Shown: positions 1 through 13,233 of the stretch, piece by piece | Numbering within the stretch: the stretch's first letter is position 1 | How the letters are laid out: each line of letters starts with the position of its first letter | Source of the DNA: a candidate division TA06 bacterium SM23_40 | Lineage (GTDB): Bacteria > LJUI01 > SM1-40 | Assembly: GCA_001303705.1 (NCBI GenBank) | Contig: LJUI01000040.1 | Coordinates: 1 to 17,614, forward strand | Direction: 5' to 3' | DNA length: 17,614 bases | Program-made: the position numbers and the translations under genes | The notes under the pieces: generated by a model | Told to the model about the DNA's origin: nothing | The model's database searches: none | Seen by the model: only the letters and a program-made list of their open reading frames with translations

Positions 1-670
1 AGATGCCGCCGAAGAAGTGCGCGTCGACGGACGTGTCGAACAGAAAGCGCCAGTAGAACGTAAGTCGGGGCCGGAGCATCTCCGTGAGATTCTGCTCGAT
101 ATACGCGAACAGAGGCTCGAGCGTCGTGCCTTCGAAGTCCTTCACCCGTGGAACAAGGACCCTCTGTCCCATCCTGGTCGGATCCGAGTAATCGTATTCT
201 TCGACATAGAGCACATCCTGCAACTTGACGACCGCCCGGTCCCATCGCGTCTGCCCGTACTGGCTGCGCGGGAGGACAGGCCTGGGCTCACCGGGGAGCG
301 GCCCGAGGAGTTCCCGGAGCCGGTCTTTCAATTCCCCGAGATATCCGCGATACTCGCGCCGCTCGGGGGAGCCCATCTCGTCCAGCTCTTCTTCAAACGC
401 CGCGATCATGTCGTACACGGGCTGACGCGCCCGTTCTGCCGCCGCCGTCTCGGCCAGGATGATCTCAGGGTCACCGCGCCCGAAACTCTCCAGCATCATC
501 TGCCTGTACTCGACTGTGGCTCTGAATACAAAAGACCCCCATCCACGGACGAATATCGGGCCGAGCACGATGATCAGGGCGGCGACCATCAGTACGATCG
601 AGCCGACCCCGAGACCGGTGAACGACCGATCCAGAAGTTTCCTCGTTCCGAGCTGCGTCTTACTCTCCAC
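1..670 (-). CDS. pstA: Phosphate ABC transporter permease PstA (partial, C-terminus beyond left edge)
   Basis: One of the two inner-membrane permease subunits of the high-affinity phosphate importer. Only 223 codons are visible. After a basic N-terminus there is one membrane segment at about residues 19-41 (GVGSIVLMVAALIIVLGPIF), then about 165 mostly polar residues rich in Glu, Arg and Asp. The frame ends in FFGGI, which looks like the motif opening the permease core in PstA proteins. The GTG start at 670 is the only supported start: AGGA lies 6 nt upstream and an in-frame stop lies at 692-694. The GTG lies inside the end of pstC (stop at 660-662), so the two are probably translationally coupled. 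The long segment between the first helix and the core is much larger than in the short E. coli-type PstA; enlarged PstA proteins are known in some Proteobacteria. Identification rests on position after pstS-pstC and on the core motif. Confidence 0.85.
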   Translation of the reverse strand, partial: MESKTQLGTRKLLDRSFTGLGVGSIVLMVAALIIVLGPIFVRGWGSFVFRATVEYRQMMLESFGRGDPEIILAETAAAERARQPVYDMIAAFEEELDEMGSPERREYRGYLGELKDRLRELLGPLPGEPRPVLPRSQYGQTRWDRAVVKLQDVLYVEEYDYSDPTRMGQRVLVPRVKDFEGTTLEPLFAYIEQNLTEMLRPRLTFYWRFLFDTSVDAHFFGGI

Positions 671-1853
671 CCAGCATCCTCCTGGTCCGCCTCATCACCA
701 ACTCGCTCGCCAGATTGGCGACAAATGAGATGGCGAGGAGGCAGAGGGCCATCGCGAAAAGCACGTGGTAGCGAGCCGAGCCGGTGACATGGTCGGCCTC
801 GCCCATATCGCCCGCAATCGTGGCCGTCAGCGTTCGAACCGGCTCCAGATAGTTGAACCACGGCTCAGGAATCTGCGCCGCGTTGCCAGAGGCCATCCAT
901 ACGACCATCGTCTCCCCCACAGCGCGCATCACTCCGAGGATAACAGCGGCAAGGATTCCACTGCTTGCCGCAGGGATCACAACCCGCAGGACAGTCTCCG
1001 CTCGCGTGGCGCCGAGTGCATAGCTCCCCTCACGCAGCTCGCGCCCTACAGCCTGAAGTGCATCCTCAGATACGCTCACAATGGTCGGCAAGGCCATTAT
1101 CCCCAGAATGATCGAGACGTTGAGCGCGTTGGTGCCGCTCGTAACCTCCACACCCCGGATCCCCCCGGAAAGCCGGTACAGGAGCCAGAGCCCGGGCCCG
1201 ACGATTGCCACTATGGTGGCTGTGCGCCCGGCGAGCAGAAAGCGGCCCGACACCCGACGGCTGACGAGCCCGCCCGCCACTACGGCCCCCAGCAGGATGA
1301 TCGGAACTCCGACCAGCCATATCGCGACGGAGAGAAGCCCCGGTCCCCGTGTCTGCAGGAGCGGAGCGAAGACCACGAGGGCAAAGAACCCGTAAGCAAC
1401 TGATGGGATGGCTGCGAGGATTTCGATGACGGGCTTGACGACTTGCCGCACCGCGAAGGGAAGCACGAAGCTCAGGCAGACGGCAGCAGATACCCCCATG
1501 GGTACGGCCACGACTACTGCCCCGAGCGTCACCAACCCACTCCCGATGAACATAGCGAGGGCTCCGAACTCGGGCGGGTCCGCTGAAGGATACCACGCGA
1601 TGCTGGTGAAGAACTCCTTGAACCCTCGCAGAGTGAAGAACGGCAACGCATCCTTGAATATGAAAATGAAGATAAACAGAACCGCGACCGTTGAGACCGA
1701 AGCGATGGCAAACAGAAGACCCTCCCCGAGAAGAGAGCCCAGGCGCCGGAAGCGCCTGGACCTCTTCGTAAGGAGCAACTCGGATCGTGTGAGCGCCGCT
1801 GGGCTCCTGGTTTCCGCGATCGTCGCAGTAGGAGAGTCGTCTCTATTCCCCAA
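660..1853 (-). CDS. pstC: Phosphate ABC transporter permease PstC
   Basis: Inner-membrane permease partner of PstA. The 397-residue frame has a polar N-terminal tail of about 40 residues, a first helix at about 45-66, and several further hydrophobic segments. Family motifs are clear: IPSVAYGF at 149-156, ALPTIVSVSEDAL at 254-266, an EAA-type cytoplasmic loop for ATPase contact at about 264-300 (ELREGSYALGATRAETVL), and GETM at 313-316. The start is TTG at 1853, preceded by GGGAGG at 1859-1864 with 5 nt spacing; no ATG is better placed. The gene follows pstS by 24 nt and overlaps the GTG of pstA by 11 nt, so pstS-pstC-pstA are one transcription unit. It should be induced with pstS from the PHO-box promoter upstream. 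pstB and phoU are expected beyond the left edge but cannot be seen. Confidence 0.95.
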   Translation of the reverse strand: MGNRDDSPTATIAETRSPAALTRSELLLTKRSRRFRRLGSLLGEGLLFAIASVSTVAVLFIFIFIFKDALPFFTLRGFKEFFTSIAWYPSADPPEFGALAMFIGSGLVTLGAVVVAVPMGVSAAVCLSFVLPFAVRQVVKPVIEILAAIPSVAYGFFALVVFAPLLQTRGPGLLSVAIWLVGVPIILLGAVVAGGLVSRRVSGRFLLAGRTATIVAIVGPGLWLLYRLSGGIRGVEVTSGTNALNVSIILGIMALPTIVSVSEDALQAVGRELREGSYALGATRAETVLRVVIPAASSGILAAVILGVMRAVGETMVVWMASGNAAQIPEPWFNYLEPVRTLTATIAGDMGEADHVTGSARYHVLFAMALCLLAISFVANLASELVMRRTRRMLGGE

Positions 1854-1877: not shown

Positions 1878-2738
1878 TCAATACTGAGTCAAAGGAACGA
1901 ATCCGATCGCCTCGATTATCTCCTGTCCCTTCTTGCTCATGTGCAGGGTCACGAACCCGTGCACGTGGCTACCCAGCTTCGGATATCTGTTTGTGAACAT
2001 GTACAGCGGCCGTGCGATCGGGTATTTACCGCTCGCAACGGTATTGCCCGTGGGAGCGACACCGTTGACCGTGAGAGCTTTGACTGTCCGATCCACAAAC
2101 CCCAGCCCCACGTAGCCGATGGCGGCCTGCGTGCTCTGTACCCGCTGGCGTATAGCGCCGTTACTGCCGACATACTCGACCCCGGCCGCTATCTTCTCCT
2201 TCCTCATCACGATGTTCTCGAACGTCTCATAGGTACCGCTATTCGTGTCACGGCTGATCACAACGATCTTCTTCTCGGGGCCGCCGACTTCATTCCAGTT
2301 CGTGATCTTGCCGAGATAGATATCTCGCACCTGCTCCAGTGTGAGGTCGCTCGCAGGATTGCTGGGATGAACGATGACCGCCAGCCCGTCCATGGCGACC
2401 ACGTGAGCGACGGGAAGGACGTCCTTCTCCACCGCGGCCTTGAACTCGGATTCCTTCATGAACCGGGACATGTCGGCGATATGGCAGGTGCCGTTGATGA
2501 GACTCTTGGCCCCGTTCCCGCTACCCGACTCGCTGACCGTGATGTTGACCTCGGGGTACTTCTCCATGTAGTACTCCGCGAACGCCTTCGCGATAGGTCC
2601 CACAGTCGTGGACCCATCGATGACGATCTCGTGCCCTTTGTCCTCAGCGGCACTAGCGCCGCCCACGAACATGCTCAAGCTCGAGACCACGACCATCAAC
2701 GCAAGGGCCTTTCCCAGCTTCGAGAATACGCTTCGCAT
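1878..2738 (-). CDS. pstS: Periplasmic phosphate-binding protein PstS
   Basis: Binds inorganic phosphate in the periplasm and delivers it to PstCA. The 286-residue product begins with a signal peptide (basic start, hydrophobic 10-25, likely cleavage after ASA at residue 30). Phosphate-ligand loops of the family are present: GSTTVGP at 42-48, SGSGNG at 71-76, DMSR at 89-92 and RDTNSGT at 163-169. The length fits the compact PstS subfamily. ATG at 2736-2738 has GGGAGG about 8 nt upstream. There is no lipobox cysteine at the cleavage site, so a soluble periplasmic form is more likely than a lipoprotein. It is the first gene of pstSCA and is preceded by an 11-bp-phased PHO-box array at 2786-2824. 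Confidence 0.95.
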   Translation of the reverse strand: MRSVFSKLGKALALMVVVSSLSMFVGGASAAEDKGHEIVIDGSTTVGPIAKAFAEYYMEKYPEVNITVSESGSGNGAKSLINGTCHIADMSRFMKESEFKAAVEKDVLPVAHVVAMDGLAVIVHPSNPASDLTLEQVRDIYLGKITNWNEVGGPEKKIVVISRDTNSGTYETFENIVMRKEKIAAGVEYVGSNGAIRQRVQSTQAAIGYVGLGFVDRTVKALTVNGVAPTGNTVASGKYPIARPLYMFTNRYPKLGSHVHGFVTLHMSKKGQEIIEAIGFVPLTQY

Positions 2739-2771: not shown

Positions 2772-2777
2772 ACGTTA
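2772..2777 (-). promoter_or_regulatory. Candidate -10 element of the pstS promoter
   Basis: On the minus strand TAACGT lies 8 nt downstream of the last CTAACA hexamer of the PHO-box array. The match to TATAAT is only partial (TA at the first two positions and the final T). Its position agrees with the porin and response-regulator promoters, where the -10 follows the last hexamer by 9 nt. No good -35 is seen, as expected for an activator-dependent promoter. Confidence 0.4.
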
Positions 2778-2785
2778 CGCCGTAA

Positions 2786-2824
2786 TGTTAGAATCCTGTT
2801 AGGACAGGGTCAGATCCTTGTTAG
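2786..2824 (-). promoter_or_regulatory. PHO-box array upstream of pstS (four phased hexamers)
   Basis: On the minus strand four hexamers occur at exactly 11-bp intervals: CTAACA (2819-2824), CTGACC (2808-2813), CTAACA (2797-2802) and CTAACA (2786-2791). Two of them lie within an 11-bp direct repeat, CTGTCCTAACA. Eleven-bp phasing of half-sites is the known architecture of PhoB/PhoP binding sites, and the hexamer resembles the TTAACA-type repeat of Gram-positive PhoP. A PhoB/PhoR-type pair is encoded nearby. The repeat is seen directly; the binding protein is inferred. Confidence 0.75.
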
Positions 2825-2840
2825 GACAGCCGGCCTGCCC

Positions 2841-4004
2841 TTAGAACTTCGTCTGCAGATCGACTTGCACTCGCTGGTAGTGTCTTGACTGGTCGTCGGA
2901 GCCGATGCCGAGTTCGTTCACGAAATACGTCGCGCCAGCAGTGACGTTCTTGCCGATCTGGTACCCGAAGCCCAACTCGAACCCCTTGCTGTTGGTTCCG
3001 CCGCCTCCAAAGTCCGAGTCGGTGTACGCCCCGATCACCGCATCCCTCATGAGCTCCCGGTAGTCGCCATAGAGCTTCCAGTCACCGCGCTTGTTCGTCG
3101 TGCCAATAGAGGCACCGGCCAGCCAGCCATAGTCCTCGTCGTTAGCGTCGTCGACACCCAGATTCATCACATAGTCACCGTGGAGGGCGACCGGGACCCC
3201 CTGGATCTTGAACTTGAGTTCAGCGAACGGCTCCAGCTCTTCGTAGTCCTGTGTGTAGATCGTGTTCGCGCCCTGGACAACGACGCTGTTGCCGAATTCG
3301 TCACTAGCGTCGTAGAAGGTCGGGAAGTGTTCGGCCTCCGTGAACTGATAGTAGCTCCCGCCGACGACGAGCACGGCATCGCTGAAGGCCTCTCCGTCGC
3401 CGAGAGGAAGCTCAAACTCGAGCCCACCCTGTGCTCCCAGGAGCCGGGAGTCATCGTCCTGCGAACGCTCCTCCACCCAGAAGCCACCGCCAGACGCGAG
3501 GATGCTGACCTTCCCAAGGTCCCGGCCAAAGCTCGCAGCAAGCCCTTCCAGTGTCAGGTCGCCGTCCCAGACGAGCTCTGTCTTTCCCGGGGTCCGGAAC
3601 GGATTCCTCATCTTGCCACCGAACAGATGGAATCCACGGAAGCACCCCGGATGCCAGTCGATGTAGACAAGGTCGAGCCAGATCTCCTTGGTGCTGAACC
3701 CGCCATCGAGCGTCTGGTTCGTGGAGACCGGATCGTCCCCTCCGCTCGCGAGCCGGAAGACCAGATCGAGGTCGCCGCCGACTGCCGCCGTGAGCCCTAT
3801 CCGGGCCCTGATCCGCTCGCGATATCTGCTGTCTGCACCCTCCTCGTCGATGTACTCGAACCTGTACCGCAGATCCCCACTCGGCATGACGCTCTCGGTC
3901 CACGGGGCGGCCAATACCTGCACCGTGCCCACCGACAGCAGCACAGCTACCAGCACGCCCGAGCATATCAGGCTCGGGAACCCACTCAACGAGGACCTGT
4001 TCAT
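2841..4004 (-). CDS. Putative outer-membrane porin (Porin_5-like), likely phosphate-regulated
   Basis: Predicted outer-membrane beta-barrel that would let small solutes, plausibly phosphate, into the periplasm. Starting at ATG 4002-4004 the product has 387 residues and a signal peptide (hydrophobic segment about 11-32, cleavage near LAA at 31-33). The mature part is rich in alternating aromatic and polar strands with Gly and Asp turns. It resembles 'putative porin' proteins in the segments GDLRYRFEYIDEE, DPVSTNQTLDGGFSTKEIWL and LVWDGDLTLEGLA, and it ends in Phe (VDLQTKF) as expected for BAM-assembled barrels. The start has AAGGAGG 4 nt upstream. In-frame upstream starts (ATG 4037, GTG 4124) would put 11 or 40 polar residues before the signal peptide and were rejected. 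It lies between phoR and pstS and has its own PHO-box promoter. Substrate specificity cannot be read from the sequence. Confidence 0.85.
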   Translation of the reverse strand: MNRSSLSGFPSLICSGVLVAVLLSVGTVQVLAAPWTESVMPSGDLRYRFEYIDEEGADSRYRERIRARIGLTAAVGGDLDLVFRLASGGDDPVSTNQTLDGGFSTKEIWLDLVYIDWHPGCFRGFHLFGGKMRNPFRTPGKTELVWDGDLTLEGLAASFGRDLGKVSILASGGGFWVEERSQDDDSRLLGAQGGLEFELPLGDGEAFSDAVLVVGGSYYQFTEAEHFPTFYDASDEFGNSVVVQGANTIYTQDYEELEPFAELKFKIQGVPVALHGDYVMNLGVDDANDEDYGWLAGASIGTTNKRGDWKLYGDYRELMRDAVIGAYTDSDFGGGGTNSKGFELGFGYQIGKNVTAGATYFVNELGIGSDDQSRHYQRVQVDLQTKF

Positions 4005-4023
4005 AGGACCTCCTTCGGTTGCG

Positions 4024-4070
4024 CCACCTCCTGGCATCTGTTGCGATCTCTCTTCCCACCTCCTGGCATC
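4024..4070 (-). repeat. 15-bp direct repeat in the porin mRNA leader
   Basis: A 15-bp sequence (plus strand CCACCTCCTGGCATC) occurs at 4024-4038 and again at 4056-4070, a period of 32 bp. On the transcribed strand each copy reads GATGCCAGGAGGTGG, so each carries an ATG and an AGGAGG Shine-Dalgarno-like core ahead of the true ribosome site of the porin. It may be a chance local duplication or a leader with extra ribosome-binding cores. Confidence 0.6.
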
Positions 4071-4190
4071 ATAGCAGCCCGCCCCGGGGCCGGGTACACA
4101 CTCTTCAGCCTCCCCTCCGGGCACGACACCGCCCCACCCCTCCCCTCAATGTCCCAGCCCCGGAGCTCTACTGCTTCGGGCTGCAGAGCA

Positions 4191-4196
4191 AATATA
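4191..4196 (-). promoter_or_regulatory. -10 element of the porin promoter
   Basis: Minus-strand TATATT lies 9 nt downstream of the last hexamer of the porin PHO-box array. It would give a leader of about 180 nt before the ATG at 4004. No consensus -35 is present, because the PHO array occupies that position. Confidence 0.6.
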
Positions 4197-4205
4197 GGTG
4201 GAGTT

Positions 4206-4233
4206 TGTTTGGCCTTTGTTAGACAGGCCTTAG
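4206..4233 (-). promoter_or_regulatory. PHO-box array upstream of the porin gene (three phased hexamers)
   Basis: On the minus strand CTAAGG (4228-4233), CTAACA (4217-4222) and CAAACA (4206-4211) are spaced at exactly 11 bp and end 9 nt before TATATT. Both hexamer and phasing match the array upstream of pstS, so the porin is probably activated by the same response regulator under phosphate limitation. The array lies just past the end of the phoR gene. Confidence 0.7.
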
Positions 4234-4274
4234 AAGTGTATGAAATGGGGGAGGCCAGCCGAAGAGAGTGCAGA

Positions 4275-6038
4275 TTACGCAGCCGGCAGATGTATGACGA
4301 AGGTGCTGCCCTTGCCCGGAGAGCTCTGTACAGAAATCGTCGCTCCGTGCACCTGGGCGACGTGTTTGACGATCGCAAGGCCCAGGCCGGTGCCGCCGAG
4401 CTTCCGGCTCCGAGCGTTATCGACGCGGTAGAACCGCTCAAAGATCCTCGGAAGGTGTTGCGCTCCGATCCCACACCCTTCATCCCGAACCCGGATCACG
4501 ATTTCGTCAGCTTCCTTTGTGGCGCTCACGAGGATAGTCCCACCCTCCTCGCTGAATTTGATGGCATTGTCGATGAGATTGACGACGGCACTCTCGAGAA
4601 GAGCCACGTCGATCCTGGCCGTGAGACCTCCCTCGAACGTCGTCTCGATCGAGATATCTTTCGCAGCGGCCTCACTCTCACACGTCCGGATGGCGGCGCG
4701 AACCACGGGCTCGATTGAGCCCTTTTCCAGTTCAAGCTCCCGCCTCTCCTCCTCCTGCTCAAGTCGGGAGATCATGAGCAGATCTTCAATGATCGCGTTG
4801 AGGCGGTCAGCCTGGCGGGCGATCATCTCCAGGAAACGCTCAGCGTCCCGGGGCCTCTCGAGCGCCCCACTCCCGATCGTCTCGGCCGCCCCTCTAATAG
4901 AGGTGATCGGAGTCTTGAGCTCGTGCGAGACATTTGCGACGAAGTCCCGCCTGACACGCTCAAGCCGGCGTAGCCTGGTGACATCGTTGAGGACGATGAC
5001 CGCTCCCGCCCTTCTCCCGTCTGCGTCACGTAAGGCCGCACCGTGAGCCTGGAGAAAACGATCGGGCGCACCTGCTACGAAGATGTCACCCTCGGTAGGT
5101 TCAGCCGAGGTGAGGGCACGCCCCACAAACGCCTGGAGTTCCACATTACGGAGGACCTCTTCAATGGCTCGACCATCCGCCGAATCGGGGTCGACGCCGA
5201 GCAGCCGACCGCAGGCAACGTTCATCTCCACGACACATCCACTCGAATCTACGGCGAGGACTCCCTCCTGCATGCTCGAGAGGATCGCCTCACGTTCATT
5301 GCGCTCTCTCGTCGTGGTGCGAAGTCGCTCATCGAGCCGAGCTGCCATCTCGTTCAACGACTCGGCAAGGGCCGCGATCTCTGCGATCTCGGAGATGGGG
5401 AGTCGCCGCCCGAGCTCGGCCCGCCCAAACGACCGCGCACCTCTCCCAAGCTCGCCCAGCAACCGGCTAACCCGCCGCGAGACAACGAGACTGACTGCTG
5501 CGAAGAGCCCCACGACTACGAGCATGAGCACGGTGATCCTGACATATATGGACCTGAGTGCACTGGCCACAAACCCGGGAGGAACTGAGGTCCTCACTGC
5601 CCCCACGATCTCGCCGTCGACTTCCAGCGGGACGGCAGTGTACATCAGTTGCATCTGCCGCGTCTGGCTGTACCGCATCGATGAGCCTGCCTGCCCGCGG
5701 AGCGCTCTCGCAATCTCCGGCCGATCGCCGTGGTTCTCCATCCGCAGCGGATCCTCGTCGGAGTCCCCGAGAACATTGCCCGCGAAGTCCACGACCGTTA
5801 TGCGGGTCGAGGATTCTCTTCCCAACTTCTTGCACAGTGCGTCGATGCGGGCTGGATCGGAGAGCCCGACCAGCTGCTCCTTGATGAGACGCGCCCGGGC
5901 CTCGAGATCCTGGGACGTTGCATCGACATAGAGAGCGCGAAAGAAACGGGGCGTGAGTCCGACGATTGCGAGGAAAGCCACGATAATCGTGAACAGGTAG
6001 AAGACGTAGAGCTGCCAGAGAAGCCGACGTCTGCGCAT
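4275..6038 (-). CDS. phoR: Phosphate-regulon sensor histidine kinase, PhoR type
   Basis: Membrane sensor kinase that would phosphorylate the adjacent response regulator when phosphate is scarce. In the 587 residues I see a first membrane helix (about 9-29), a periplasmic sensor segment (about 30-165), a second helix (about 166-187), a HAMP-like linker (about 188-240), a PAS-like domain (about 245-355), and the HisKA H-box VSHELKTPITSIRG with phospho-accepting His372. The ATPase domain follows, with N-box NLIDNAIKFS (487-496), G1 box DEGCGIG (519-525) and G2 box GGTGLGLAI (548-556). The extracytoplasmic domain makes it longer than E. coli PhoR and closer to the Bacillus PhoR plan. ATG 6038 lies 3 nt after the regulator's stop with its ribosome site (AGGGAG) overlapping that stop. 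The assignment to phosphate rests on the linked pst genes and PHO boxes. Confidence 0.9.
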   Translation of the reverse strand: MRRRRLLWQLYVFYLFTIIVAFLAIVGLTPRFFRALYVDATSQDLEARARLIKEQLVGLSDPARIDALCKKLGRESSTRITVVDFAGNVLGDSDEDPLRMENHGDRPEIARALRGQAGSSMRYSQTRQMQLMYTAVPLEVDGEIVGAVRTSVPPGFVASALRSIYVRITVLMLVVVGLFAAVSLVVSRRVSRLLGELGRGARSFGRAELGRRLPISEIAEIAALAESLNEMAARLDERLRTTTRERNEREAILSSMQEGVLAVDSSGCVVEMNVACGRLLGVDPDSADGRAIEEVLRNVELQAFVGRALTSAEPTEGDIFVAGAPDRFLQAHGAALRDADGRRAGAVIVLNDVTRLRRLERVRRDFVANVSHELKTPITSIRGAAETIGSGALERPRDAERFLEMIARQADRLNAIIEDLLMISRLEQEEERRELELEKGSIEPVVRAAIRTCESEAAAKDISIETTFEGGLTARIDVALLESAVVNLIDNAIKFSEEGGTILVSATKEADEIVIRVRDEGCGIGAQHLPRIFERFYRVDNARSRKLGGTGLGLAIVKHVAQVHGATISVQSSPGKGSTFVIHLPAA

Positions 6039-6041
6039 AGG

Positions 6042-6728
6042 CTACTCCCTGAACCTGTATCCTACCCCGCGCACCGTCTCGATGTATTCGCCCGCCGATG
6101 CGAGTTTCTTGCGCAGCCCCACGATCTGCACGTCGACTGACCGATCGCTCACCGGATAGTCCATCCCCCTCACCGCATCGACGATCTGATAGCGCGTGAA
6201 GACCCAGCCAGGGTGGCGCGCGAGGTGTGCCAGGATGCTGAACTCTGTGTATGTCAACTCGAGGGGCTTGCCCTTGACCGTTACTCTGTGTCGCACAGGA
6301 TCGATGACGATGTCATCCACCTTGATGACAGCGTCCTTGTCCCGGGGCTGCATGGCCTTTCTCCGGAGAACCGCCCTGATTCGCGCAATGACGACCTTGG
6401 GACTGAACGGCTTGGTGATGTAGTCGTCCGCACCCAGCTCAAGACCGGTCACTATGTCCGATTCATCGCCCTTGACGGTAATCATGATGACGGGAATGTT
6501 CTCCGTCCGGTGATCTCTCCTCAGGGCTTTGCAGACCTCCAGGCCGTCCACGCCGGGCAGCATCAGATCGAGGAGCACTATGTCGGGAAGGTCGGCTCTC
6601 ACCTTGCCGAGCCCCTCCTCCCCGGATCCTGCCCCCGTCACCCGGTACCCTTCCTTCTCGAGGTTGTAGCGGAGTATCTCCTGGATATCTTCTTCGTCTT
6701 CGATAATAAGTACGTGCTCTCGAGGCAT
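6042..6728 (-). CDS. phoB: OmpR/PhoB-family response regulator (phosphate regulon)
   Basis: DNA-binding response regulator, the partner of the sensor kinase encoded 3 nt downstream. The 228-residue product has a receiver domain (about 4-118) with acidic residues EDEED at 10-14, phospho-acceptor Asp54 (LLDLMLPG), Thr84 and Lys106 (KPFSP). A winged-helix output domain (about 132-227) follows, with the OmpR-type ending ETVRGVGYRF. Length and domains are those of PhoB/PhoP. ATG 6726-6728 has AGGAGA 6 nt upstream. It is first in a two-gene unit with phoR, and its own promoter carries a degenerate phased array (6772-6799), suggesting autoregulation. It is the likely reader of the arrays at the porin and pstS. 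It could equally be named phoP; membership of the phosphate regulon is inferred from the neighbours. Confidence 0.9.
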   Translation of the reverse strand: MPREHVLIIEDEEDIQEILRYNLEKEGYRVTGAGSGEEGLGKVRADLPDIVLLDLMLPGVDGLEVCKALRRDHRTENIPVIMITVKGDESDIVTGLELGADDYITKPFSPKVVIARIRAVLRRKAMQPRDKDAVIKVDDIVIDPVRHRVTVKGKPLELTYTEFSILAHLARHPGWVFTRYQIVDAVRGMDYPVSDRSVDVQIVGLRKKLASAGEYIETVRGVGYRFRE

Positions 6729-6756
6729 AGCATATCTCCTGCTCAGTTCCCTGTAC

Positions 6757-6762
6757 TCTATA
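6757..6762 (-). promoter_or_regulatory. Candidate -10 element of the phoB-phoR promoter
   Basis: Minus-strand TATAGA lies 9 nt after the last phased hexamer, the same distance as in the porin promoter. A competing reading is a sigma70 promoter with TTGACA at 6793-6798 and TAATAA at 6771-6776 (spacer 16 bp), which could give basal expression. Confidence 0.45.
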
Positions 6763-6771
6763 CAATCGCAT

Positions 6772-6799
6772 TATTAGGATATCGCTAGGATTTGTCAAG
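6772..6799 (-). promoter_or_regulatory. Degenerate PHO-box array upstream of phoB-phoR
   Basis: On the minus strand CTTGAC (6794-6799), CTAGCG (6783-6788) and CTAATA (6772-6777) recur at 11 bp. The hexamers match CTAACA poorly, but spacing and distance to the -10 copy the porin promoter. A weak site would fit modest autoactivation of the regulator. Confidence 0.45.
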
Positions 6800-6898: not shown

Positions 6899-6910
6899 CC
6901 TGTTGACAGG
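6899..6910. promoter_or_regulatory. Inverted repeat over the -35 of the regulator/export operon (possible operator)
   Basis: CCTGT-TG-ACAGG is an inverted repeat with 5-bp arms and a 2-bp centre. Its right arm is part of the -35 box, so a bound dimer would block RNA polymerase. The GbsR/MarR-like protein made from this promoter is a natural candidate for autorepression. The repeat is short and the link is inference. Confidence 0.35.
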
Positions 6911-6931
6911 AATTCTGATAACTACTATAAT
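6903..6931 (+). promoter_or_regulatory. Consensus sigma70 promoter of the gbsR-lol-like operon
   Basis: TTGACA (6903-6908) and TATAAT (6926-6931) both match the sigma70 consensus fully and are separated by the optimal 17 bp. The DNA just upstream of the -35 is AT-rich (about 6868-6897). The TATAAT lies 25 nt before the ATG at 6957, giving a short leader. Such a strong promoter is normally held down by a repressor. Confidence 0.85.
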
Positions 6932-6956: not shown

Positions 6957-7439
6957 ATGATGGAACAGGAAAGGCCTAGTGAACTAACGTCTTACGTCGA
7001 GCAGTGGGGGATGCTCTTCGAACAGCTTGGAGCTACCCGTATGATGGGCAAGGTGCTGGGGTGGCTGCTCATCTGCGATCCCCCGGGGCAGACCGCCAGG
7101 CAAATCGCAGACGCCATCGGGGCGAGTATAAGCTCGATTAGCATCGCCACCCGCGCCCTGACCCAGGCAGCGATGATCGAACGGGTAGGCGTGCCCGGAG
7201 AGCGCAGCGCCCGCTTCCGCGTCAGGCCCGGCATGTGGTCGAGACTCATCAAAGTACGCATGGGGCACCTCGCCACGATGCGCGAGCTGGCCGACGAGGG
7301 ACTGAGGCTTCTCGATTCTCCGGACGCCGGACGTGCGCTGAGACTCAGGGAGATCCAGAGCTACTGCGAGTTCATCGACAGGGAACTCCCCGCGCTTCTC
7401 GCCCGGTGGGAGGAGGAATGGAAAGGAGGGAAGTCATGA
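6957..7439 (+). CDS. GbsR/MarR-family transcriptional regulator
   Basis: Small winged-helix DNA-binding protein, 160 residues, probably the local regulator of the envelope-export genes that follow. It resembles the GbsR-like branch of the MarR superfamily: YVEQWGMLFEQLGATRMMGKVLGWLLICDPP at the N-terminus (residues 13-43, written here only as a landmark by its conserved WG, G, R and GWLL positions), then a helix-turn-helix at about 45-76 (QIADAIGASISSISIATRAL) and a wing with GVPGERSARFRVRPG. The C-terminal half is helical and charged, probably for dimerisation. ATG 6957 has AAGGAGG 6 nt upstream; the next ATG (6960) is also possible, and an upstream TTG lies inside the promoter. Its stop overlaps the next start in ATGA, so it is co-transcribed. 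The ligand is unknown; osmolyte sensing as in Bacillus GbsR is not implied. Confidence 0.85.
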   Translation: MMEQERPSELTSYVEQWGMLFEQLGATRMMGKVLGWLLICDPPGQTARQIADAIGASISSISIATRALTQAAMIERVGVPGERSARFRVRPGMWSRLIKVRMGHLATMRELADEGLRLLDSPDAGRALRLREIQSYCEFIDRELPALLARWEEEWKGGKS

Positions 7440-8704
7440 CTGCGGAAAGAGATCGGCGAAGGTACCCGTGCCGGGCGGCCGGCCTGTATCTGCTGGCGCT
7501 CGCCGTGGTTCTCACGCCTCTCCTCGCGGGAACCGCCGCATCAGAGACCCACGTGAGACGCGAAGCCGGCGTGGAGAAGAGCACCGCCTCCGGAACAGAG
7601 GGCCGTTCAGAGCAGTATGTACGAGCGGGGGACGTGGAGACGCCCGGCGCAGGGACTTCCTCAATAGGGAGCATGTCTGCGCAGGCCGCGCAGACGCAGA
7701 GCGCACAGGCTTCCCCGAAACAGAAGAACCCTGCGCACGCCGCTGCTGGCACCACAGGGATACCTAGTGAGGCCGAGGCGCCCTGCACAGATACCGACAA
7801 CGCCAGCGCACAGATGTCTTCACCGGGAGAGACCCCACCGACAGACACCGACAACGCCGGCGCACAGACGTCCTCCGAGGGAGAGACGCCACCGACAGAC
7901 ACCGACAACGCCGGCGCACAGCTACCTCCCGACGAGGAGACGACGACGCCAGCCGAGCCGGAAACAGAAAGCGCACGGACCCCTTCGCAAACCGAACCAC
8001 CCGCGCCGGAGATGGGCGAGGCACCCGATGTGACGCGCCTGTTGAGGCGACTCGACGAGATGTACGAATCCTCGGGCACTTCGGCGCAGGTCGAGATCAC
8101 GATTGTCAAGCCGGACAAGACCAGGACGCTGCGGCTCCGCGCGTGGAGCAAGGGAGACGACAAGGCCCTCATCGTCATCGACGCGCCTGCCCGCGATGCG
8201 GGGACCGCTACGCTCAAGGTGGGCAGGAACCTCTGGAACTACCTGCCCAAGATATCGCGCACCATCCGCGTCCCTCCCTCGATGATGATGGGATCGTGGA
8301 TGGGGACTGATCTGACCAATGATGACATAGTTCGCGAGTCGTCCTACGAGGAGGACTATACCTCGGAGCTCGTGGGGATGTCGGCCGACCCTCGAGGATG
8401 GAAGGTTCGGCTCGATGCCCGCCCCGACGTTGCCGGTCTCTGGAACCGCGTGGAGATCGTCTTCTCCACGGATGAGGGACTCCCTGTACAGGCTCAGTTC
8501 TTCGATCGGAAGGACCGTCTCTCGCGTACCATGCGCTTCGAAGAGGTAAGGCAGATCGGCCGCAGGCAGGTGCCCACGGTCATGACCGTGATACCCGAGC
8601 GCGAAGAGAACGAGTACACAGAGCTCCGCTATCTGTCTATCGATTTCGACATCGAAGTCGATGATGATATGTTCAGCCTCTCCCAGTTGGAACGGAGGCG
8701 CTAG
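7436..8704 (+). CDS. LolA-like outer-membrane lipoprotein-sorting protein with long repeat linker
   Basis: Predicted periplasmic carrier of lipidated or hydrophobic cargo working with the ABC transporter encoded next. The 422 residues comprise an N-terminal hydrophobic segment (about 15-36; cleavage near AGTAA is possible), a low-complexity linker rich in Thr, Pro, Ala and Glu (about 37-195) containing three 18-residue repeats, and a LolA-like domain (about 197-420). That domain carries the family landmarks NLWNYLPKISRTIRVPPSM around 266-283 and WMGTDLTNDDIVRESS around 288-303. ATG 7436 was chosen for AAAGGAGGG 5 nt upstream, the ATGA overlap with the regulator and the signal-like start. An upstream extension to 7235 would run through the regulator gene. 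The linker is unusual and may hold the domain away from the membrane if the hydrophobic segment is not cleaved. Cargo is unknown. Confidence 0.85.
   Translation: MTAERDRRRYPCRAAGLYLLALAVVLTPLLAGTAASETHVRREAGVEKSTASGTEGRSEQYVRAGDVETPGAGTSSIGSMSAQAAQTQSAQASPKQKNPAHAAAGTTGIPSEAEAPCTDTDNASAQMSSPGETPPTDTDNAGAQTSSEGETPPTDTDNAGAQLPPDEETTTPAEPETESARTPSQTEPPAPEMGEAPDVTRLLRRLDEMYESSGTSAQVEITIVKPDKTRTLRLRAWSKGDDKALIVIDAPARDAGTATLKVGRNLWNYLPKISRTIRVPPSMMMGSWMGTDLTNDDIVRESSYEEDYTSELVGMSADPRGWKVRLDARPDVAGLWNRVEIVFSTDEGLPVQAQFFDRKDRLSRTMRFEEVRQIGRRQVPTVMTVIPEREENEYTELRYLSIDFDIEVDDDMFSLSQLERRR
7775..7936 (+). repeat. Three-copy 54-bp (18-residue) coding tandem repeat
   Basis: In-frame units start at 7775, 7829 and 7883. 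Each encodes a variant of E-(A/T)-P-(C/P)-TDTDNA-(S/G)-AQ followed by four to five variable residues, at residues 114-167 of the LolA-like protein. Units 2 and 3 are nearly identical at DNA level, so the expansion is recent or maintained by slippage or recombination. Confidence 0.9.
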
Positions 8705-8728
8705 AGCCCCAGAACCAGGGAGGAGGAC

Positions 8729-9970
8729 ATGGTATCCAGAAGCACCTTACGAATTGCATGGCGTAATCTCGGGCGCAACCGCAAGCGCACCATTCTCGCG
8801 CTCTCGGCGATAGCCGTCGGCCAGTTGGCCTTTCTCAGTGTCGCCGCCCTCATGCGTGGCTTCGGGGAACAGTATCTCGATTCGATAACCGGTCCCATGG
8901 TGGGCCACATACAGATCCACGCACCACGGTGGAGAGATGACCGGTCCATCGACGTGACGCTGCGGCACGTTTCAGCCACCATCGCCGAGGTCTTGCAGGA
9001 CCCGGACGTCGAACGCGCATCTCCCCGCATCTACGCCCCTGCCCTCGCAGCACTGGAAGTGGAAGGATTCATGAGCGTAGTCGTCGGCATCGATCCTGCC
9101 GCCGAATCACACCCCCGTGGGCTTGTCCCAGGCGAGCACCTTTCAGGCCAGCTAGGAGAGCATCGCGTCCTGGTCGGCGCGGCGCTCGCACAGAAGCAGA
9201 CCATCGAGCCCGGCATGGAGATCGCGATCGTGGGACAAGACGTGGATGGGTCCATCGCCAACGATCTGTTCACGGTATCGGGCGTCATCCCGTCCGCGAT
9301 CGATATCGTCCACAGTCAGGGCATCGTCATGTCCTTAGAAGACGCTCAGGAGCTCTTCCTCATGCCGGATCAGGCGCACGAGATCGTCATTCACCTAAGC
9401 AATCCGGACCGCATTGGCGATGTAGTTGCGCGTCTCTCCTCTCTCCCGCTCCTTCGGGATGCAGAGGTGCTCCCATGGCAGGAGATCCTTCCCCAATTCG
9501 TGTCTATCCTCAAGCTTATGGAGGGCTATATATTCGTGGTTCTGTTCATCGTCTTCCTCGCGGCAGCGGCCGGTATCGCAAACACCATGTTGATGTCGAC
9601 CTTCGAGCGCACCCACGAATTCGGCATGCTCCTCTCCCTCGGGTGCGGCCCGGGCCGCCTTTCGAGGATTATCGCGACAGAAGCCTTGCTCCTCGGGCTG
9701 GCGGGCGTGTCCATAGGAACAGCACTGGGAGTAGGGCTGGTCGCCCTCACCTCCGGATCTGGAATAGACTACGCCGCCCTGGGAGGCAGCGCATCCTCGT
9801 ACGAAGCCGCCTTTGCGGGGATCACGATGTCATCCCATACCTTCCCGAAGACGTACGTGAGTGATGTAGCCGTGGGAGTGATCGCAGTGCTCCTCACTTC
9901 GCTCCTCTCTGTCACCTGGCCTGTACTGCATATCGTGCGTCTCGAGCCGATGGAGGCAATGCGATCATGA
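8729..9970 (+). CDS. ABC transporter permease, FtsX/LolC-LolE/MacB type (first copy)
   Basis: Inner-membrane subunit of an export or extraction ABC transporter. The 413 residues show the classic plan: a cytoplasmic start with AWRNLGRNRKRT (10-21), a first helix at about 22-42, a large periplasmic domain (about 45-265), and three C-terminal helices (about 268-290, 310-345, 375-400). The FERTHEFGMLLSLG segment after the second helix is the coupling element typical of FtsX-domain permeases. It starts 24 nt after the LolA-like gene with GGGAGGAGG just upstream of the ATG. Its stop overlaps the next permease start in ATGA. Two unequal permeases with one ATPase recall LolCDE; LolC/E and MacB-like exporters cannot be told apart from sequence alone. 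Confidence 0.9.
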   Translation: MVSRSTLRIAWRNLGRNRKRTILALSAIAVGQLAFLSVAALMRGFGEQYLDSITGPMVGHIQIHAPRWRDDRSIDVTLRHVSATIAEVLQDPDVERASPRIYAPALAALEVEGFMSVVVGIDPAAESHPRGLVPGEHLSGQLGEHRVLVGAALAQKQTIEPGMEIAIVGQDVDGSIANDLFTVSGVIPSAIDIVHSQGIVMSLEDAQELFLMPDQAHEIVIHLSNPDRIGDVVARLSSLPLLRDAEVLPWQEILPQFVSILKLMEGYIFVVLFIVFLAAAAGIANTMLMSTFERTHEFGMLLSLGCGPGRLSRIIATEALLLGLAGVSIGTALGVGLVALTSGSGIDYAALGGSASSYEAAFAGITMSSHTFPKTYVSDVAVGVIAVLLTSLLSVTWPVLHIVRLEPMEAMRS

Positions 9971-11208
9971 GAGTGTCGATCATCACGAAGTTCGCCGTTC
10001 GCAGTCTCGGACGAAACGTACGCCGCACACTACTCTCTGTCGTCGGTATCGGTATCGGCTGCGCGGTGGCGCTCTTCCTTACCGCCTTCATGCGAGCCAG
10101 CAACCAGATGCGAGTCCGGGCGATCGCGGAGAGCGGCTTCGGGCACGCGAGGATCGTCCCCATCGAATGGGAGCGGACCCGCGATAATGAGCTTCGACTC
10201 CCGGATTGGGAAGTCGCACTCGAGACTGCCAGATCCACCGATGGCGTGAAGGTGGCTGCCCCTCACGCACGTGTCACAGCGCTCCTCGCCTTCGGCACGA
10301 GAGTCGCAGGGGTAGAGATGGTCGGTGTCGATCCTCCGGCAGAACAACAGACGAGCCGTCTCGTGCTTGCTGTCAGTGCGGGAAGGTACCTCCGCACCGG
10401 AGACCGGGGCGTTACGGTAATAGGAAGCACCATTGCCGAGCGTCTCGATGTCGAGCTCGACGATGATCTGCTTCTCACCGTCGTCAGAGGCGATGGGGAG
10501 ATGGAATACGCTATGCTTCGGATCGTCGGCATCATCAACACGGGCAGTCGGGAGATCGACGGGTCCATATGCCACATCACCCTCGAGGACCTCGAACGGC
10601 TCACCGGCGTTGTGGGAGCGGGAGAGATAACGCTCACGTTCGACGACCCCAGGAAAACCGATCGCCTGGCAGCTCAACTCGAAGAGAGGGTGCCGGAGGG
10701 GGATGCCGTCCTCACGTGGAAGCAAGTGGTGCCCGCGCAGGGCGCTGACTATGAGAGCGACCGTGCTTTCATGAATCTCCTTATGGGCATTGTAGTCGTT
10801 GTCGTAGTCCTCGGGATCACGAGCGCGCAGCTCACGGCGATCCTCGAACGAAAGCGCGAGTTCGCGGTACTGATGGCACTGGGGATGAAGGGCCTTCAGG
10901 TGATCCGCCTCGTCCTCGTCGAGACCGTAACGCTCGGAATACTGGGCGCGGCCGCCGGGCTGTTACTGGCCCTGCCCCCTGTGTACTACACCGCCACCAG
11001 GGGTCTCAATTTCGCCGCGATCCTGGGGGGAGACTCTGCGATCTCGGGAGTGCTCTTCGACCCGATCTTCTACTCAGATATGGGGGTCTGGATGATTCCC
11101 TATGCGCTGTTCGTGGCACTCATCTCCACGCTCATCGCAGCTGTATGGCCAGCCTGGTATGCATTCAATACAGATCCGACGTCGGCTCTCAGTCTTCGGG
11201 AGGCATAG
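9967..11208 (+). CDS. ABC transporter permease, FtsX/LolC-LolE/MacB type (second copy)
   Basis: Second inner-membrane permease, also 413 residues and of the same architecture but clearly diverged from the first. It begins RSLGRNVRRTLLSVVGIGIG with the first helix at about 18-42, has a large periplasmic domain, then three C-terminal helices starting with a Val-rich segment near 272-290. The coupling motif ILERKREFAVLMALG and a final WPAWYAFNTDPTSALSLREA follow. The ATG overlaps the previous stop by 4 nt, indicating coupled translation and a heterodimer in a fixed ratio. The nearby ATPase starts 2 nt after its stop. By analogy with LolC/LolE one permease may bind the periplasmic LolA-like carrier, but which one is not evident here. 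Confidence 0.9.
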   Translation: MRVSIITKFAVRSLGRNVRRTLLSVVGIGIGCAVALFLTAFMRASNQMRVRAIAESGFGHARIVPIEWERTRDNELRLPDWEVALETARSTDGVKVAAPHARVTALLAFGTRVAGVEMVGVDPPAEQQTSRLVLAVSAGRYLRTGDRGVTVIGSTIAERLDVELDDDLLLTVVRGDGEMEYAMLRIVGIINTGSREIDGSICHITLEDLERLTGVVGAGEITLTFDDPRKTDRLAAQLEERVPEGDAVLTWKQVVPAQGADYESDRAFMNLLMGIVVVVVVLGITSAQLTAILERKREFAVLMALGMKGLQVIRLVLVETVTLGILGAAAGLLLALPPVYYTATRGLNFAAILGGDSAISGVLFDPIFYSDMGVWMIPYALFVALISTLIAAVWPAWYAFNTDPTSALSLREA

Positions 11209-11210
11209 CG

Positions 11211-11930
11211 ATGAACAACACGCTCGTAGATGTTAAGAACGTGACAAAGGATTACCGCGCCGGCAAGGTTATCGTCCATGCTCTCCGCGGCCTCGACCTA
11301 GCCATCCACGAGGGAGACTTCATGTCCATCGTCGGCCCGAGCGGCAGCGGCAAGACCACACTCCTCAACCTCGTCGGCGCGCTCGATACCGCCACCAGTG
11401 GAGAGGTGAGCGTCTTCGGCAACGATCTCTCTACAATGGGCCGCAGGCGACGCGCCGACCTTCGCCTGAAATCGCTCGGTTTCGTCTTTCAAGCATACAA
11501 CCTCATCCCGGTGTTGACCGCGCGCGAGAATGTCGAATTCGTCCTCGAGCTACAGGGCGTGGGCAGCGAGCGCCGCGACATCGCATTCTCCACCCTGGAC
11601 GACCTCGGAATGGGTGACCTTGCCGACCGCCAGCCAAACGAGCTTTCCGGCGGACAGCAGCAGCGCGTAGCAGTGGCCCGGGCTGTGGCGTCACGCCCGA
11701 GGCTCGTCCTTGCGGACGAGCCGACGGCCAACCTCGACAGCGAGAACGCCGAGGCGCTGCTCCAGATGATGAGGCATCTCCGCGACGAGCAGGCCATGAC
11801 GTTTGTCTTCTCGACCCATGATCCCCTTGTCGTCTCGTATGCGTCACGCGTCGTGACACTGCGGGACGGCAGAGTAGTGAGCGATGAACTGAAGGACCCG
11901 ACCTCGGACGCCCACGAGGCAGGCAATTAG
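11211..11930 (+). CDS. ABC transporter ATP-binding protein, LolD/MacB family
   Basis: Cytoplasmic ATPase that would power the two permeases. All nucleotide-binding motifs are intact in the 239 residues: Walker A GPSGSGKT (42-49), Q-loop Gln94 in FVFQAYNLIPVLTARENV, signature LSGGQQQR (145-152), Walker B LVLADEPT (165-172), D-loop NLDS and switch His203 in STHDP. The sequence LIPVLTARENVEFVL and the length match the LolD/MacB/FtsE group rather than importers. ATG 11211 was chosen because GGGAGG lies 7 nt upstream, overlapping the previous gene's end, and because the protein then begins with the usual short beta strand. The longer frame from 11145 overlaps the permease by 64 nt and is unlikely. 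Confidence 0.93.
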   Translation: MNNTLVDVKNVTKDYRAGKVIVHALRGLDLAIHEGDFMSIVGPSGSGKTTLLNLVGALDTATSGEVSVFGNDLSTMGRRRRADLRLKSLGFVFQAYNLIPVLTARENVEFVLELQGVGSERRDIAFSTLDDLGMGDLADRQPNELSGGQQQRVAVARAVASRPRLVLADEPTANLDSENAEALLQMMRHLRDEQAMTFVFSTHDPLVVSYASRVVTLRDGRVVSDELKDPTSDAHEAGN

Positions 11931-11943
11931 CCGGGGGCATTCG

Positions 11944-13233
11944 ATGCGTCTGATAAGAATCGGAAAGCTGCTCCTTGGCACGACCACGGCGATCTGTCTT
12001 TGCGCCTCGGTGCCTGCCTCACACTCGTTCGAACTCTGGTCGAGTAGCGATGGCAACATCCACTATTCCCTCGACGCCTCCCTCAAGTCGACTTCTCTTC
12101 TCGCACGCGCACCCGATGACTCGCTCCTCTACCCGGAGCGCTGGAGCGGCGCCTCTCTGTGGCGAATGCGTCTCGCCTTCGAAGCGCGGGCCGGCTCGTG
12201 GCTCAACGCCGAGGTAGCCTATGAGCAACGCGCCCGCACTATCTCGGAACGCTCTGGCGCAGGAGGCGGCGCGGGTATCCTCGCGTCTGAGAGCCGCGCG
12301 CCCTACCGTATTGCACAGGTCGACGAGGCGCTTGTGGAGATCGGCAGCACGTTCTCGTACAGACACGAACTGGACCGGGCCTTCGTGGCGGCCTATTTCG
12401 GGAGGGCCGAGATCGCGGCGGGCAGGCAGGCGATCGGCTGGGGGCGCGGCGTGCTCTTCAGCGCAGTCGACATCCTTGCTCCGTTCACCCCCCTGGAGAG
12501 CGATCGAGAGTGGCGCCGCGGCATCGATGCCGTACGCGGGAGCATTCTCCTCACCGACCTCATCTCCTTCGATGCTGTAGCGGCGATAGGCGAGTCGCTC
12601 GACACATCCTCATTTGTGGGACGCCTGCGCGGATATGTCGGCAACCTCGACGGCGAGCTCTTCGTCGGCAGGCGGTACGAGGACTACCTGTACGCGGCCA
12701 CGGCCTCCGCGCCGGTGTGGGAGGCCGAACTGCACGGCGAGGTCGCCCTGTTCAACACACCTGAAGACGTCCCGGACGGGGGCACCTTCGGGCGCGACGA
12801 CCTCGTTGCCAAAGCGGTCATCGGGGGATCGTACAGCTTCGATATAGGAAGCGGCATTCTTGCCTTCGCCGAGTACCACTACTCCGGATTCGGGGTACCA
12901 AAGATAGAGGACCTGGGGACACACCTGCAGGAGGAGGCATTCCGGGAGCGGTTGGCTCGCGGCGATACGCAGATTCTCGGCCGACACGCCGTAGCGTTTC
13001 AGGCCACGTATGGGATCGGGGCCCTCCTCTCCCCCAGCGCCTCCTGGATACTGAGCCCGGCAGATGGTTCAGGTGTCCTGATCCCGGGGGTCTCGTGGAT
13101 CTTCTCAGATAATCTGACCCTCACCGCCAGTGCCTACCTCCCTCACGGCGAGGAACCCCACGACGGCCAGCTCACGAGCGAATACGGCGGCACCCCGGCC
13201 AGCGGACTCCTCCAGATCAGCTTCTACTATTGA
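11944..13233 (+). CDS. Outer-membrane beta-barrel protein of the export operon
   Basis: Predicted outer-membrane protein of 429 residues. It has a signal peptide (basic MRLIRIGK, hydrophobic 9-24, cleavage near PASHS at 24-28) followed by many amphipathic strands with Gly/Asp turns. A conserved-looking block at about 155-200 includes GRQAIGWGRG, DILAPFTPLE and REWRRGIDAVRG, and the chain ends in aromatic residues (ISFYY). It resembles the DUF1302-type or generic outer-membrane proteins often found with LolA-like and FtsX-permease genes, but I cannot assign a named family. It is 13 nt downstream of the ATPase gene with a GGGGG ribosome site, so it belongs to the operon. It could be the outer-membrane acceptor or exit, replacing LolB, which is absent. 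The last two sense codons lie inside the first 26-bp repeat. Confidence 0.75.
   Translation: MRLIRIGKLLLGTTTAICLCASVPASHSFELWSSSDGNIHYSLDASLKSTSLLARAPDDSLLYPERWSGASLWRMRLAFEARAGSWLNAEVAYEQRARTISERSGAGGGAGILASESRAPYRIAQVDEALVEIGSTFSYRHELDRAFVAAYFGRAEIAAGRQAIGWGRGVLFSAVDILAPFTPLESDREWRRGIDAVRGSILLTDLISFDAVAAIGESLDTSSFVGRLRGYVGNLDGELFVGRRYEDYLYAATASAPVWEAELHGEVALFNTPEDVPDGGTFGRDDLVAKAVIGGSYSFDIGSGILAFAEYHYSGFGVPKIEDLGTHLQEEAFRERLARGDTQILGRHAVAFQATYGIGALLSPSASWILSPADGSGVLIPGVSWIFSDNLTLTASAYLPHGEEPHDGQLTSEYGGTPASGLLQISFYY

Follow-up and report, generated by a model that had tools for sequence, protein, structure and literature searches.

Predicted YTAAC-type PHO boxes at the pst-pho locus of a candidate division TA06 genome and a suggestive link between box type and PhoB Arg201

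Three promoters in a single phosphate locus of a candidate division TA06 bacterium carry tandem 11-bp repeats which, judging from sequence comparisons, are very likely PHO boxes read by the PhoB protein encoded in the same locus and serving to activate pst, a porin gene and, probably, phoB-phoR. The window (the whole stretch of DNA analysed, 17 614 nucleotides) is an entire 17.6-kb contig from a MAG of 2.88 Mb (189 contigs, ~90% complete). The boxes would consist of half-sites arranged head to tail at intervals of 11 bp, i.e. one helical turn, and would be the targets of phosphorylated PhoB. When phosphate is low, PhoR would phosphorylate PhoB, which would then bind three to four half-sites standing in for the -35 element and recruit sigma-70 RNA polymerase to the -10 box located 8–9 nt downstream. 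The genes switched on would be pstSCA(B) and that of the outer-membrane porin, probably along with phoB-phoR, thus creating a positive feedback. The core of the half-sites would be YTAAC, and not GTCA, because this PhoB lacks Arg201; covariation among genomes and a published E. coli contact both point that way. We infer binding, phosphorylation, activation, transcription and the phosphate response of the locus from these comparisons.

The genes of the locus are on the minus strand in the order phoB, phoR, porin, pstS, pstC and pstA (Table 1), the last one being truncated by the contig end. The phoB-phoR-porin-pstS-pstC order was found again in relatives. No separate phoU was found beside pst within the assembled window, because the contig stops within pstA. 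Besides this porin, the assembled genome contains no Porin_5 protein.

Table 1. Coordinates of the genes, predicted half-sites and promoter elements in the window
Feature	Coordinates	Strand	Basis
pstC, phosphate permease	660..1853	-	TIGR02138, 250.9 bits (above cut-off of 196)
pstS, periplasmic phosphate-binding protein	1878..2738	-	TIGR02136, 294.8 bits (above cut-off of 206.6)
pstS -10-like TAACGT	2772..2777	-	8 nt past last half-site (relatives: usually 9)
pstS PHO half-site 4, CTAACA	2786..2791	-	triple 26.3 bits, shuffle P < 1/4000
pstS PHO half-site 3, CTAACA	2797..2802	-	sequence, pattern search, matrix scan
pstS PHO half-site 2, CTGACC	2808..2813	-	sequence, pattern search
pstS PHO half-site 1, CTAACA	2819..2824	-	sequence, pattern search
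outer-membrane porin	2841..4001	-	Pfam Porin_5, E 9e-46
porin -10-like TATATT	4191..4196	-	9 nt past last half-site
porin PHO half-site 3, CAAACA	4206..4211	-	best porin triple 18.2 bits, shuffle P < 1/4000
porin PHO half-site 2, CTAACA	4217..4222	-	sequence, pattern search, matrix scan
porin PHO half-site 1, CTAAGG	4228..4233	-	sequence, pattern search
phoR, membrane histidine kinase (HAMP, PAS, HisKA, HATPase)	4275..6038	-	domain matches
phoB, OmpR/PhoB-family response regulator	6042..6728	-	PF00072, PF00486
phoB -10-like TATAGA	6757..6762	-	9 nt past last half-site
sigma-70-like promoter TTGACA-17-AATAAT overlapping phoB repeats	6770..6798	-	11/12 consensus matches
phoB PHO half-site 3, CTAATA	6772..6777	-	14.2 bits, shuffle P 0.019
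phoB PHO half-site 2, CTAGCG	6783..6788	-	sequence, matrix scan
phoB PHO half-site 1, CTTGAC, degenerate	6794..6799	-	sequence, matrix scan

A divergent gene cluster lies on the plus strand (6957–13233). A perfect sigma-70 promoter, TTGACA-17-TATAAT (12/12; 6903–6931, +), is found ahead of its start near 6957 and suggests that the standard -10 sequence holds in this host. Two proteins of the cluster have no Pfam match, a small one which resembles a DNA-binding regulator and one of 429 amino acids; the others are a LolA-like lipoprotein-sorting protein (PF17131), an ABC ATPase and two FtsX/MacB permeases. As a whole the cluster resembles a gene set for exporting outer-membrane lipoproteins or for transporting lipids. 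The LolA-like protein displays a long low-complexity stretch of TDTDNAGAQ repeats (about 7780–7940, +) between its signal peptide and its domain.

The hexamers, 11-bp spacings, -10-like boxes and positions reported in a first-pass annotation of this DNA were all exact on the minus strand. Half-sites are 11 bp apart at pstS (four copies), porin (three) and phoB (three), and all three sites display the arrangement expected of a PHO box, namely at least two direct repeats with a period of 11 nt at a fixed distance from the -10 box and no separate -35 element, phoB having in addition a -35-like TTGACA. Two features of the E. coli type are absent: the cores are CTAACA, CTGACC, CAAACA and CTAATA instead of CTGTCA, and the -10 box starts 8–9 nt past the hexamer instead of 11. 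The core is YTAAC at an 11-bp period, as in the boxes of Bacillus, cyanobacteria and Bacteroidota. When each intergenic region was subjected to dinucleotide shuffling, the score of the site was reached in 0 of 4000 shuffles for pstS, 0 of 4000 for porin and 75 of 4000 for phoB (P = 0.019), in agreement with the earlier view that the geometry shared by the three promoters is not due to chance. A matrix trained without the window and applied to both its strands gave 26.3 bits for pstS, 18.2 for porin and 14.2 for phoB, the next best score being 5.1 bits; the maximum in 200 shuffled windows was 8.4 bits on average (sd 3.0, highest 21.0).

Specificity was also assessed at the level of the genome. 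The search for three YTAACA at 11-bp spacing with up to three mismatches returned 3 matches, two at pstS and one at porin (8 matches for the reversed-pattern control). A sequence-only covariance model that included the window sites retrieved exactly pstS, porin and phoB in 2.88 Mb at E ≤ 10. When trained without the window sites, the model had pstS as its sole match in the genome (E 1.3), the porin and phoB sites falling short of the E 10 limit genome-wide. The first-pass annotation had proposed to look for enrichment of the box at phoU, pho, phn and glp genes; no further site was found in the assembled genome, and its two genes with PhoU domains have no box upstream (best score, 3.6 bits). 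One of the two is a long 798-codon frame, probably coding for a Na/Pi cotransporter. From these scans, the detectable strong regulon seems to be confined to the pst-pho locus in the assembled genome.

Conservation was analysed in 79 pstS upstream regions, i.e. that of the window and those of relatives found via PstS; sampling by PstS similarity favours genomes with a PstS of the window type, and gene starts in the relatives were assigned by rule and are uncurated. A tied-repeat motif model was fitted to these regions unsupervised, no consensus being assumed. The log-likelihood gain was 350 for a period of 11, with CCTAACA as consensus, against 35–94 for periods 7–10 and 12–15; a refit without the window gave 366, against 9–19 for shuffled sequences. 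Fifty of the 79 regions scored above the 99% null, where 0.8 would be expected; the repeats are thus kept upstream of pstS in relatives, a check also suggested by the first-pass annotation. The -10 score in relatives peaks exactly 9 nt past the last hexamer, and none of the other distances from 2 to 21 scores high. When the matrix trained on pstS was applied to 787 kb of loci, sites were detected at 19 out of 26 porin promoters and 13 out of 41 phoB promoters (3 raw matches in the shuffled loci). The box is found upstream of pst and other phosphate genes and is maintained there in relatives. In several loci lacking a pstS site, the porin gene sits directly ahead of pstS. Most covariance-model matches in eight related genomes are within the pst locus; an off-locus match in one relative precedes an unlinked Porin_5-like porin gene (CTAATA..CTAACA-CTAATA, then TATATT after 9 nt).

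The box had initially been called lineage-specific. CTAACA-type boxes were found in MAGs labelled Krumholzibacteriota, Eisenbacteria, Kiritimatiellota, Verrucomicrobiota, Planctomycetota, Sumerlaeota, Aminicenantes and others; being common to MAGs of many phyla, the box is therefore not lineage-specific. YTAAC boxes are also present in further phylum-diverse genomes. Pontiella is a cultured relative that has the box. One locus (L134) contains, near 5285–5307, exact tandem CTAACCCCAAA repeats with an 11-bp period; these probably form a simple repeat array rather than a PHO box.

The linked response regulator, already designated as the likely binder, is still the best candidate. It combines a receiver and a winged-helix domain, is linked to phoR and pst, and is the only protein of the assembly with a PF00486 domain (Trans_reg_C, OmpR/PhoB-type DNA-binding). 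Its score against the TIGR02154 equivalog is 262 bits, under the curated cut-off of 296; it is the only full-length match to TIGR02154 in the assembled genome, and TIGR02154 is also its best match among NCBIfam families. On this basis, PhoB very probably reads the predicted PHO boxes of the locus. Alignment of its recognition helix, RSVDVQIVGLRKKL, to E. coli PhoB indicates that Arg201 is replaced by Gly. The E. coli base contacts T194, V197, R201 and R219 correspond to S, V, G and R; V197 and the minor-groove Arg219 are kept, R201 is lost and T194 is conservatively changed. The crystal structure of E. coli PhoB on DNA shows a bond between Arg201 and a guanine, and contacts of Thr194 and Val197 with thymines (PMC3973317). 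In its transactivation loop the window PhoB departs from E. coli PhoB by E177Y, W184R and E191S, which suggests that the sigma contact may differ; W184R abolishes activation in E. coli PhoB (PMC3973317), and relatives with the same PhoB helix have Arg or His at the Trp184 position. An effect of the altered loop (W184R) on the 9-nt gap was considered and found unsupported, since YTAAC-type PhoBs of other branches, which apparently keep Trp (as read by eye), also show a 9-nt gap in the phylum-diverse set.

Alternatives to this interpretation were weighed. An origin of the repeats by chance or local duplication deserves practically no credence and is already refuted for pstS and porin: the hexamers are admittedly short, and some are degenerate, but the period-11 fit, the shuffles, the genome scan and the recurrence at the same genes in different phyla all argue against it. 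Local duplication was specifically ruled out, since the spacers are dissimilar whereas the period is kept from phylum to phylum. Binding of the repeats by a regulator other than PhoB is very improbable. We infer PhoB binding, and another OmpR-type regulator could be missing because the MAG is ~90% complete; against this, the assembly contains a single PF00486 protein, PhoB-type operators have been described as 11-bp direct repeats (PMC4415409) and box type tracks PhoB type across genomes. There is more to say for the idea, unlikely as it is, that PHO boxes exist at pstS and porin alone and that the phoB repeats are a constitutive sigma-70 promoter (TTGACA-17-AATAAT) whose hexamers fall by accident on an 11-bp grid. 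The phoB site, with its degenerate hexamers, is the weakest of the three (shuffle P = 0.019), it is overlaid directly by an 11/12 consensus match and it was detected in just 13 of 41 relatives. However, phoB sites in relatives far exceed the shuffled rate, and the second -10-like box, TATAGA, is at the conserved 9-nt distance. TTGACA-17-AATAAT may be a rival or an additional basal promoter of phoB, which may be basal, autoregulated or both; a basal promoter and autoregulation could both be true.

With PhoB as the predicted reader of the boxes, the relation between box type and Arg201 was analysed at pst-linked loci with a detectable box, GT boxes being CTGTCA-like and AA boxes YTAACA-like (in a few cases, PhoB and pstS lie on different stretches and were matched as belonging to one genome). 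At P < 0.01, 10 GT and 2 AA boxes were counted for PhoBs with Arg201, and 0 GT and 36 AA for PhoBs without it; the phylum-diverse genomes alone gave 9 GT and 2 AA against 0 GT and 11 AA. At P < 0.003 there was no exception (6 GT and 0 AA with Arg201, 0 GT and 35 AA without); the two Arg201 PhoBs with AA-like boxes at the looser cut-off are those of L129 and L223. The Fisher values for this link (1e-8 and 2e-4) overstate the evidence because changes on the PhoB tree are few: about two in box type and four in the residue, with one supported independent pair. So few independent switches rule out the link as proof of causation; we regard it as suggestive. In one genome (G006, comprising L084 and L115), the pst operon is orthologous, with a PstS 66% identical to that of the window, but PhoB is from another branch, that of the Arg201 group, and the pstS promoter of L084 reads TTGTCA-CTGTCA-CTGGCA, an apparent natural swap of regulator together with operator. 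Three loci from MAGs labelled Sumerlaeota and Planctomycetota (L062, L066 and L106) display TTTATA or TTTACA boxes accompanied by a PhoB helix RNIDVH.R[SA]VR.KL; these boxes are perhaps a third flavour.

The two box types also differ in register. In the phylum-diverse set, the -10 box is 9 nt past the hexamer for AA boxes (12 promoters, including those of the window). For GT boxes the distance is 11 nt (10 rows, 9 genomes), the same as at phoA and pstS of E. coli. Alignment by the -10 box, on a small sample, places gTCAY of the GT class opposite yTAAY of the AA class, and seems to speak against simply matching CTAACA to CTGTCA base for base, as is common practice and as was done in the first-pass annotation. 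A broader proposal, which we put forward tentatively as only just short of an even chance, is that two physically distinct PHO-box classes exist across bacteria. PhoBs with Arg201 would read GTCAY, with the -10 box 11 nt past CTGTCA; the others would read YTAAY, with the -10 box 9 nt past YTAACA. Aligned by the -10 box, the classes would share a T-x-A-Y core, and two discriminating base pairs would lose guanine along with the loss of Arg201; the YTAAC class would be in wide use, with the textbook E. coli box as a special case. A somewhat smaller, still appreciable, probability goes to the correlation being due to shared ancestry only, i.e. to two PhoB subfamilies differing at many residues, Arg201 not being causal. 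The small number of changes on the tree is in line with shared ancestry, as are the AA-like boxes of L129 and L223; the guanine contact of Arg201 in the E. coli crystal (PMC3973317) and the lack of any linked GT box among 36 PhoBs without Arg201 are against it.

In terms of significance, the window boxes represent a known switch with a new sequence, with possibly a new rule on top. They yield a PHO-box matrix and a spacing rule for many uncultured phyla whose phosphate regulons are inaccessible by culture. They also turn a general remark of the literature, that box sequence follows regulator contacts, into a question about one residue, namely whether Arg201 decides between CTGTCA and YTAACA as well as the 2-bp shift relative to the -10 box. 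In the collection of papers searched, none pairs CTAACA with the term 'Pho box', which is weak evidence of novelty.

Among known systems, the PhoP repeats of Bacillus subtilis are TTAACA-like, with a YTAACA core at about 11 bp as in the window; B. subtilis is a Firmicute. The first-pass annotation had found the hexamer closer to the Gram-positive repeat although the cell is Gram-negative. The comparison of letters is correct, but there is no paradox: 'Gram-positive-like' is misleading because YTAAC boxes have been published for cyanobacteria (PMC1906773) and Bacteroidota (PMC9603813). The cyanobacterial SphR box, CTTAACCT with 3-bp linkers (PMC1906773), resembles the window boxes by its YTTAAC core, three tandem units and 11-bp period; it differs by a C-rich tail (CA in the window) and by a regulator from another branch. 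PhoP of Riemerella anatipestifer, a Gram-negative member of the Bacteroidota, has a TTTAACA motif identified by DAP-seq (PMC9603813). The Gram-negative host, OmpR-type regulator and TTTAACA core are points in common, whereas that PhoP has hundreds of sites, with virulence-related targets reported (PMC9603813), against three sites in one locus here. PHO boxes in general are made of 11-nt direct-repeat units whose consensus differs by species and depends on regulator contacts (PMC4415409); the Streptomyces PhoP box, GTTCACC (PMC4415409), shares these units with the window boxes but not their core. Finally, the PhoB PHO box of E. coli (CTGTCAT, 11-nt direct repeats) is similar in its tandem 11-bp repeats, its pstS and phoB targets, its location in place of the -35 element and its OmpR/PhoB-type regulator; the window differs from it by a CTAACA core (CTGTCA in E. 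coli), a regulator without Arg201 and a -10 box at 9 nt (8 at the window pstS), whereas E. coli phoA and pstS have it at 11 nt.
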